From assembly GCA_020721815.1 (NCBI GenBank), contig DYMA01000004.1, positions 1-38,986 on the forward strand: DNA of 38,986 nucleotides. Direction: 5' to 3'. This stretch comes from Sulfurovum sp. GTDB lineage: Bacteria; Campylobacterota; Campylobacteria; Campylobacterales; Sulfurovaceae. The notes under the pieces are model-generated. The model saw nothing but the letters and a program-made list of their open reading frames with translations, made no database searches and was not told where the DNA came from. Of this stretch, positions 8,291 to 38,986 are shown in pieces. Position numbers and translations under genes: made by a program. Position 1 is the stretch's first letter, and each line of letters starts with the position of its first letter.

Positions 8291-8492
8291 TACGCACTTA
8301 AAAAATAACCCCTTTAATGCCATTTTTAGCTGTAGGTTCAACTGTAGGTTCGGCTTTAGCCGAACAATTGGAAGTTGTTGAATGCTTTAAACTCGGCTAA
8401 AGCCGAGGCTACAGATTCAAAGTCGTAATTTAAAATAGATTGCTTCGTGCCTAGCAATGACCTGTTTCAATGGGGTAATTTTTAAGTGCGTA
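8291..8492. mobile_element. MITE-like element with ~21-bp terminal inverted repeats
   Basis: Left TACGCACTTAAAAAATAACCCC (8291-8312) and reverse complement of 8472-8492 TACGCACTTAAAAATTACCCC; internal palindromes gttcggctttagccgaac (8348-8365) and ctcggctaaagccgag (8392-8407); no coding capacity. Confidence 0.6.
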
Positions 8493-37186: not shown

Positions 37187-37242
37187 CGGGTCAAGTCCGC
37201 AATGACGGGAATTTGCTCACCAACAACAACCTTAAATCCGTA

Positions 37243-37375
37243 GCCTCGGCTAAAGCCTGAGTTTGAGAGACTCAATAACCTCCAAATGTTCGGCTAAAGC
37301 CGAACCTACGTCCGAACCTACAGCTCAAAAGGTAGAAACAAGCTTTCGCTATTGCTAATAAGTGCGTAACATCAG
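37243..37375. repeat. Palindromic intergenic repeat sharing one end with the 8291-8492 element
   Basis: cctcggctaaagcctgag, gttcggctaaagccgaac (37288-37305), and terminal taagtgcgtaacatcag (37359-37375) matching the right end of the first element. Confidence 0.6.
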
Positions 37376-37378
37376 GTG

Positions 37379-38122
37379 CTAAATAGGCAATACCCGAATA
37401 TGCTCATCAAGCTCTTTTTTGAGTGTTGCTTCGATAGCAAAAAGCGTACCCGTATTGGCACTCGCACACCCACTGCAAGCTCCCAAATAGCGAATATAGA
37501 TATCAATATGCGGACCGTTTTCTTTGATGTCCAATATCTCCATATTGCCTCCATCGGCGATAAGCATGGTGCGTATATGCTCATCGATTACTCTATCGAC
37601 GGCTTTGACTTTGCCTACGATGGTGAGGTCTCTAAAGGTGTCCTCTTTTTGTTGGGGTGTTGGCGTGGCTTTGGGTATCTCCAAAGAGGCTACCTCTACG
37701 CCTTTGTAAGTCGCTATTGCCTCGTAAATAACCTCTTGAATTGTTTGCACTTCGCTTAGTTTGTGAGAGGGAAACGCAGGGGTATCGTCGTGGTCACGCA
37801 AGGCTTTTTCGATACGTTCAATCGTCAATCCCAACACCTCATCGACACTTTTGCCTAGACAAAGCTCCACCGCCGCATCGCAACTGGCTATCATCACGGG
37901 TGTACCGTAGCATTGAAATTTGGCAGCTTTTATCGTATCGTTTGCCTCATCAATCGCCATGTAGAGCCGTATCGCTCCCGCACCACGAGGCCCCACGATA
38001 AGCTTTGCTCCCCACTCCAACGCCTCTTGGGGTGTGATTTCTCCTTGATGGAGTGGGGCATTCATACGCTCCATCATCTTTTGACTGTAGTGGTTGTTGG
38101 CTACTAAACTATCTATTCCCAT
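37379..38122 (-). CDS. NifU-like protein lacking recognisable scaffold Cys ligands and the central BFD-like domain
   Basis: 247 aa; N-terminal YSQKMMERMNAPLHQGEITPQEALEWGAKLIVGPRGAGAIRLYMAIDE...FQCYGTPVMIASCDAAVELCLGKSVDE; C-terminal Nfu domain MLIADGGNMEILDIKENGPHIDIYIRYLGACSGCASANTGTLFAIE. Confidence 0.85.
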   Translation of the reverse strand: MGIDSLVANNHYSQKMMERMNAPLHQGEITPQEALEWGAKLIVGPRGAGAIRLYMAIDEANDTIKAAKFQCYGTPVMIASCDAAVELCLGKSVDEVLGLTIERIEKALRDHDDTPAFPSHKLSEVQTIQEVIYEAIATYKGVEVASLEIPKATPTPQQKEDTFRDLTIVGKVKAVDRVIDEHIRTMLIADGGNMEILDIKENGPHIDIYIRYLGACSGCASANTGTLFAIEATLKKELDEHIRVLPI

Positions 38123-38986
38123 TGTTATCTCCTTGTGAAATGGTTCGTAATCGTTTGACCGCTTTTTTTAGCGCTTCAATGGTATCATCAATCTCCTCTT
38201 GGGTTGTCAATCGACTCAACGCAAAGCTTACACTGTTTGGCTTTTCGCCCATACTTGCTACGATACCCGATTGACCCAAATCCCACAACATCGCTTCGCC
38301 GTGAATGCCCTCAAAGGTTAGAGCAAGAGTGTGAGGAGTGCGTATCGTTTGAGGGGTCAATGAAAGAGTATGAGGAAGTGCAAGTAAAGCCTCTTCGAGT
38401 CTATCACGCAACTCTTTGGTATCTTCTAGCTCAAAATCCATTGCATCAAAAGCAAGTTCCATCGCTTTGCCCATGCCAATGACTCCAGCGACATTGACGT
38501 TACTCTCCCAAAACGCTCTATCAAGCTCTTTGCCTTGACGCATATAAAGCCCTCCGACTCCTTGGGGTCCGTGAAACCTATTGGCACGAAAGCTTACATA
38601 ATCCACGGGGGTATCTTTGAGCGAGATAGGGATTTTGCCAACGGCGTGGGTAGCATCACTGTGAAGCAATACCCCTTTGGCTTGACAGATAGAGGCAATA
38701 GCATCCATAGGAAAGATTGCCCCACTCTTGCCACTAGCCCACGGTATCGAGACAAATGCCGTTTGAGGCGTAATAAAATCATGCACCGTATGCGCTTCAA
38801 CCACTCCTTGGGCATTGAGGGGCAAATAGGTCACCTTAACGCCTTTGGATTGCAAAAAATCGATGCTTTTGGTCAAAGATTGCTCTTTGATAGTCAGGAT
38901 ATGATTTTTTTTGCTATGCAAAATGTGTTGAAAATAGAGTCCCCATGCCACCATAGACTCGTGTGCGGTTGGGATAATGGTATCTT
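38109..38986 (-). CDS. NifS/cysteine-desulfurase-like pseudoenzyme, N-terminus beyond window edge
   Basis: Open frame to the window end (...DTIIPTAHESMVAWGLYF...); NHILTIKEQSL...VTYLPLNAQG...LLHSDATHAVGKIP...VSFRANRFHGPQGVGGLYM...GEAMLWDLGQSGIVASMGEKPNSVSFALSRLTTQEEID. NifS fold is clear but active-site residues are altered. Confidence 0.85.
   Translation of the reverse strand, partial: DTIIPTAHESMVAWGLYFQHILHSKKNHILTIKEQSLTKSIDFLQSKGVKVTYLPLNAQGVVEAHTVHDFITPQTAFVSIPWASGKSGAIFPMDAIASICQAKGVLLHSDATHAVGKIPISLKDTPVDYVSFRANRFHGPQGVGGLYMRQGKELDRAFWESNVNVAGVIGMGKAMELAFDAMDFELEDTKELRDRLEEALLALPHTLSLTPQTIRTPHTLALTFEGIHGEAMLWDLGQSGIVASMGEKPNSVSFALSRLTTQEEIDDTIEALKKAVKRLRTISQGDNNGNR

Follow-up and report, generated by a model that had tools for sequence, protein, structure and literature searches.

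What is the role of a nifS-nifU pair in which both genes have lost catalytic or ligand residues and are conserved nonetheless? The pair in question lies at the right end of the window, the whole 38,986-nucleotide stretch analysed here, which is the entire contig C265 of a Sulfurovum draft genome in 277 contigs (G000). The first-pass annotation described two intact, overlapping open reading frames (ORFs) that had lost such residues together, and proposed a shared new function for them. The overlap of about 14 bp is confirmed by the ORF positions (Table 1), and NifU is indeed complete, but NifS is cut by the contig end and lacks ~50 N-terminal residues. We identified both proteins with Pfam and NCBIfam profiles, at scores well under the equivalog cut-offs; the best NCBIfam match of the truncated NifS is TIGR03403 (nifS_epsilon), at 276 bits against a cut-off of 587.7. 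Sulfurovum sp. FS08-3 (G004), a member of the same genus, encodes a 95%-identical, complete pair, in which NifS is a 341-aa ORF (L163, 2366-3391). The G+C content of the pair (37379-38984) is 46-48%, and that of the window is 41%.

Table 1. Features of the degenerate nifS-nifU pair, in positions of the window.
Feature	Position	Strand	Evidence or remark
Pseudo-NifS with the fold of class-V aminotransferases, last 291 aa	38109..38986	-	PF00266 109.7 bits; ORF 38109..38984, open at contig end
Pseudo-scaffold NifU, 247 aa, complete ORF	37379..38122	-	NifU_N 74.5 bits, NifU(Nfu) 66.3 bits
14-bp overlap between the two genes (end of nifS, start of nifU)	38109..38122	-	ORF positions
PLP Schiff-base lysine site of NifS, AGG (Arg)	38577..38579	-	Thr in G004
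Junction of catalytic-Cys loop deletion, ~18 residues	38250..38256	-	GIVAS/MGEKP (junction at slash); canonical GIAASTGSACASEDLESNPV
N domain of IscU type, cluster ligands C, D, C, C lost	37697..38089	-	Residue alignment
Nfu carrier domain, intact	37391..37600	-	CxxC (GACSGCAS) at 37466-37477

Members of the Sulfurovaceae inhabit sulfidic settings such as sulfur vents and caves. We searched 175 genomes of this family and retrieved the loci found, which yielded degenerate pairs of the kind that the first-pass annotation had proposed looking for: 32 loci in six genera (g1, the genus of the window, and g2, g6, g7, g10 and g11). The joint loss first noted in the window recurs in 31/31 complete pairs, in which the NifS Lys, Cys and stacking His and the NifU scaffold cysteines are all gone and no mixed pair occurs; the exception is the very divergent G020, the sole member of g7, in which one scaffold Cys remains and the residues are only roughly aligned. 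Canonical pairs retain every tested residue except for Ser in place of Thr in three. Among the Sulfurovaceae loci seen, there was no pair in which only NifS had been lost. This is not one decaying locus, but a co-degenerate pair spread over the family. One genome (G069) carries a canonical pair together with a probable degenerate fragment. Almost every g2 genome that we read has a divergent gene for a LysR-type regulator immediately upstream of its degenerate nifS (for example, L063:1496-2410). The NifU frames in L045 (G012) and L166 are 640-642 aa long and carry an extra insert after the N domain, possibly an intein or a domain insertion.

Alignment of the window NifS to canonical relatives revealed that the motif SAHKFHGP is changed to RANRFHGP, with Asn in place of His and Arg in place of Lys. 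A 2-residue deletion accompanies the replacement of the stacking-His motif EVEHPS, and the loop with the catalytic Cys (TGSACASED..., ~18 residues) is missing, which agrees with the first-pass description. The Lys-to-Arg change reported there is real in the window but is not a stable trait: the position holds Thr in FS08-3 and Ser, Asn, Ala, Pro or Leu in other lineages, and Lys in none of the 32 loci. The conserved trait at this site is the loss of Lys, not one replacement. The loop is deleted in g1 and g10, the catalytic Cys is replaced in the other degenerate clades, and the stacking His is gone in all degenerate lineages. Members of g1, g6 and g10, and most of those of g11, retain the Asp that binds the pyridine nitrogen of PLP; most of g2 has Asn at this position.

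The NifU was described as devoid of ligand cysteines, which applies to its IscU-like domain but not to its Nfu domain. All four IscU-domain ligands (three Cys and one Asp) are lost from the NifU of G000 and FS08-3, and the scaffold cysteines are also lost in the other degenerate pairs. The BFD [2Fe-2S] domain is wholly deleted in g1 and shows graded loss elsewhere, with four Cys kept in g11, partial retention in g6 and g10, and cysteines largely lost in g2. The Nfu domain (PF01106) of the window scores 66.3 bits against a cut-off of 27 and contains its CxxC, as do 31/31 complete degenerate pairs. We predict that it is a [4Fe-4S] cluster carrier.

Conservation by column follows the same lines. 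In NifU, 18/141 near-invariant columns are lost in all five degenerate clades, including all four IscU-domain ligands (hypergeometric enrichment 1.9e-4); in NifS, the figure is 10/112, including H102, K204 and C326 (5.3e-4). The degenerate NifU proteins keep 82-97% of the near-invariant columns in Nfu, their best conserved part, 29-55% in the IscU domain and 20-51% in BFD; the window Nfu domain keeps 97%. The folds of both proteins are predicted to be intact. An AlphaFold2 model of the FS08-3 NifS (pLDDT 84.5, pTM 0.84) has NifS 5zsp as its top structure match (TM 0.90), and a model of the window NifU N domain matches IscU in the Escherichia coli IscS-IscU complex 3lvl (TM 0.84 by target). At the level of residues, the pair is shown to be catalytically dead.

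The reading frames are intact in the degenerate loci read, in all six genera. When close pairs of degenerate loci are compared, dN/dS (Nei-Gojobori) is 0.04-0.12 for NifS and 0.045-0.14 for NifU, against 0.01-0.075 for canonical pairs. For the window pair we obtained 0.122 for NifS and 0.116 for NifU (0.181 for its N-part and 0.047 for Nfu). These ratios show that the degenerate pair is under purifying selection. The first-pass annotation had named restriction to a single strain with elevated dN/dS as an outcome that would count against it; what we find is a window dN/dS of ~0.12 and a pair present in many genera.

The two genes are also tightly packed. The nifS-nifU spacing ranges from -14 to +9 bp in degenerate pairs (median -4 bp, n=31) and has a median of +47 bp in canonical pairs (n=29), a difference with p=4e-10 in a Mann-Whitney test that ignores shared ancestry. 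The stretch of DNA that G000 shares with FS08-3 reaches from precisely the nifU stop (37379) to the contig end. The flanks downstream of the pair are unrelated (TerC/TerD in the window, a phytase-domain protein in FS08-3), which means that the pair persists as a unit. In the gap between nifU and terC (37187-37379), an intergenic repeat, CGGCTAAAGCCGAACCTACG, lies at 37291-37310 and occurs again at 8343-8362 and 8394-8413. Its copy near the nifU stop, where homology to FS08-3 ends, is a possible recombination site.

A joint NifS and NifU tree groups the degenerate pairs of four genera (g2, g6, g10 and g11) in a single clade (support 100) that joins the canonical pairs of the Sulfurovaceae and their order. 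The window pair is placed as the sister of this clade with support of 92, and an AU test retains a separate origin (p 0.195); the long branches of the degenerate pairs make placement in the tree uncertain. The locus that other genera use for the canonical nifSU, near dnaA, is occupied by the degenerate pair in g7, g10 and g11; it is flanked by folE/tig/clpP on one side and recJ, pyrG, dnaN and dnaA on the other (gene names read from the sequences, only some of them confirmed by profile scan). This synteny implies that the ancestral operon itself went dead, and it rules out a recent paralog of the canonical pair. The pair is best read as a derivative of the vertically inherited nifS-nifU operon of the Campylobacterota.

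Other systems for Fe-S assembly are present in most of these genomes. SufB/SufD were detected in nearly all pair-bearing genomes outside g1, and SufE likewise. The suf operon in the Sulfurovaceae loci read is sufB-C-D-E-T without sufS. Loss of SufE was ruled out, as the protein is present and keeps its GC.S motif with its Cys, and a search for a hidden SufS found none in the Sulfurovaceae operons read. In ~18 pair-bearing genomes of 93-100% completeness, a PF00266 search above 100 bits returned only the dead NifS, nor was a canonical NIF found in ~18 near-complete pair-bearing genomes. Among the ~18 genomes without a recognisable cysteine desulfurase is G023, a closed genome in a single 2,101,285-bp contig that is putatively Nitratifractor salsuginis. 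Its further PF00266 hits are weak, and one that we inspected resembles O-acetylhomoserine sulfhydrylase. For Nitratifractor salsuginis E9I37-1T, S0 reportedly serves as a source of sulfur (PMC3156401). By analogy with archaea that use the SMS system, our guess is that sulfide is supplied directly to SufE/SufBCD.

We found no SUF in the genomes of g1. FS08-3 carries a second, complete and canonical nifS-nifU (L041). In G000, the C-terminal half of a canonical NifU lies at the edge of contig C12, its partner NifS is absent from the assembly, and the C12 stretch is 98.5% identical to the FS08-3 DNA that holds the complete canonical pair. As read from these genes, a second NIF pair can make clusters in the lineage of the window. 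Lack of any other Fe-S scaffold had also been named as evidence against a special role for the degenerate pair; the canonical NifU fragment on C12 points to such a scaffold. In G013, the canonical pair is located elsewhere in the genome. A stand-alone Nfu of 92 aa (C31) is also encoded by G000. A further G000 protein of 323 aa (C112:676-1647, L004) fuses N-terminal Sel1-type repeats, recognised by eye, to a C-terminal Nfu with CxxC; hits of similar length occur in FS08-3 and other genomes.

A parallel exists in another family of the same order (f8). In 13 genomes of its genus g18 (L200-L212), NifU has dead IscU-domain cysteines and intact BFD and Nfu cysteines, and its gene adjoins sufB, with no nifS at the locus. 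The f8 relatives read have a canonical nifS-nifU, and one of the f8 genomes (G043) encodes SufS within its suf operon. This case arose independently and by the same logic: assembly passes to another system, the scaffold site is lost and the carrier half remains. Peculiar to the Sulfurovaceae, in comparison with f8, is that the dead NifS is also kept.

Our best explanation, in which we place about even confidence, is that the pair is a dead but selectively kept NIF derivative, acting as a pseudo-desulfurase and pseudo-scaffold complex that positions the Nfu cluster carrier. Clusters would be made by another system, SUF in most relatives and the second canonical NIF in the lineage of the window, and the old NifS would no longer be a desulfurase, nor would NifU still offer a scaffold in its IscU-like domain. 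The overlapping genes probably still give rise to a NifS-NifU complex, whose active remainder would be the Nfu domain, joined in some genera by the [2Fe-2S] domain BFD. We speculate that this complex receives clusters and passes them to apoproteins, with the dead domains serving as docking or targeting surfaces. Co-conservation and purifying selection support the shared function first proposed for the pair, but this function need not be new. We prefer the carrier reading because a retained accessory role needs fewer assumptions.

Several observations count against the carrier model. The stand-alone Nfu may make a carrier role redundant in G000, the loss of NifS in f8 means that the carrier half is able to function on its own, and a carrier role alone does not predict a NifS dN/dS near 0.1. 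It is possible, if on the whole doubtful, that the pseudo-NIF pair acts across the family as an obligate complex in its own right, which would deliver clusters for SUF or gate them, in hosts without desulfurases that feed sulfide or S0 directly into SufBCDE. We consider it unlikely that the pair is a regulatory decoy or inhibitor that tunes assembly by binding canonical NifS/NifU, SufE, SufBCD or ferredoxin. A canonical NIF does coexist with it in G000 and FS08-3, in G013 and probably in G069, and the SUF-bearing genomes hold a SufE with its Cys and without SufS, so that partner binding is possible; on the other hand, there is no canonical NIF to titrate in the ~18 near-complete genomes, and the strongest constraint falls on the Nfu CxxC domain, which a decoy would not need. 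A regulatory decoy was among the functions suggested by the first-pass annotation; as a decoy of the canonical NIF, it is rejected as a general role, since most pair-bearing genomes lack a canonical NIF. That Nfu far exceeds the other parts in conservation, and that the f8 NifU survives without NifS, would fit a pair in which only the Nfu domain matters and the pseudo-NifS and dead N-domain are passengers of operon structure. A passenger gene would, however, be expected to decay into a pseudogene, and NifS has intact frames in the loci read, a dN/dS as low as that given above and no case of its sole loss in the Sulfurovaceae, which makes this reading quite unlikely.

A residual scaffold fed with sulfide in the manner of Archaeoglobus fulgidus would suit the sulfidic habitats and the many genomes without a desulfurase, and the loss of the lysine is common to the A. 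fulgidus IscS (PMC7585200). That protein keeps its cluster-ligating Cys, whereas here this Cys and the IscU-domain cysteines are gone, and we regard such a scaffold as improbable. A new enzymatic function in the pseudo-NifS pocket is very improbable, despite the retention of the PLP-binding Asp in g1, g6, g10 and most of g11 and the residual PLP binding seen in IscS K206A, which likewise lacks the Lys (PMC9978102): the residues that replace Lys (Arg, Thr, Ser, Asn, Ala, Pro or Leu by lineage) offer no conserved replacement chemistry, the Asp itself has become Asn in most of g2, and the stacking His has disappeared everywhere. We give hardly any credence to ordinary decay, in which pseudogenes are being lost; the missing active residues and long tree branches would be expected from it, but intact frames in 6 genera, low dN/dS and tight operons would not.

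The direct ancestor is the NIF system of Campylobacterota such as Helicobacter pylori and Hydrogenimonas, with which the pair has gene order, domain folds and the Nfu CxxC in common. The two H. pylori proteins assemble as (NifS-NifU)2, and both of them make contact with Fe-S proteins (PMC8144621), a precedent for the complex proposed here. Unlike that system, the window pair lacks the PLP Lys, the catalytic Cys and the scaffold ligands, which makes cluster synthesis by the NIF mechanism impossible. The A. fulgidus IscS (PDB 4hvk, 4eb5 and 4r5f) and the Methanosarcina IscS1 are likewise desulfurase homologues of anaerobes that lack the PLP lysine and have an IscU-type partner next to them. The former has Asp in place of Lys, has no desulfurase activity and contributes one Cys as a ligand of the cluster on IscU (PMC7585200); in the pair studied here, which belongs to a different lineage, both this Cys ligand and the IscU ligands are lost. 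The NfuA of gamma-proteobacteria resembles the pair in that a dead domain is attached to an intact Nfu carrier, and its degenerate, non-cluster-binding A-type N domain is needed to target the intact Nfu domain (PMC8593673). In NfuA, however, the dead domain is an A-type carrier within one polypeptide, and here the dead parts are an IscU domain and a separate NifS. The SMS system of desulfurase-less archaea such as M. jannaschii accepts sulfide as a sulfur source (PMC12192291), and a genome without cysteine desulfurase is the condition that we infer for many pair-bearing Sulfurovaceae; SMS consists of SmsC and SmsB only, whereas SufB, SufC, SufD, SufE and SufT are all present in these bacteria. 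We found no description of a co-degenerate desulfurase-scaffold pair in the open-access papers searched. Lysine-less IscS and NfuA are precedents for parts, not for a family-wide co-degenerate pair.

Annotation pipelines would call these dead genes functional nifS and nifU, and would thus count the genomes as NIF-positive. To our knowledge, NIF, ISC and SUF have all been described as requiring a cysteine desulfurase. In the ~18 Sulfurovaceae genomes without a recognisable desulfurase, one of them putatively that of the cultured type strain of Nitratifractor salsuginis, the sole class-V desulfurase homologue has been conserved although dead, and so has the dead scaffold that accompanies it. The pair opens two questions to direct test: which roles NifS and NifU have apart from catalysis, and whether SUF can run in bacteria that lack a desulfurase. 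If it can, this would constitute a bacterial desulfurase-free SUF pathway.
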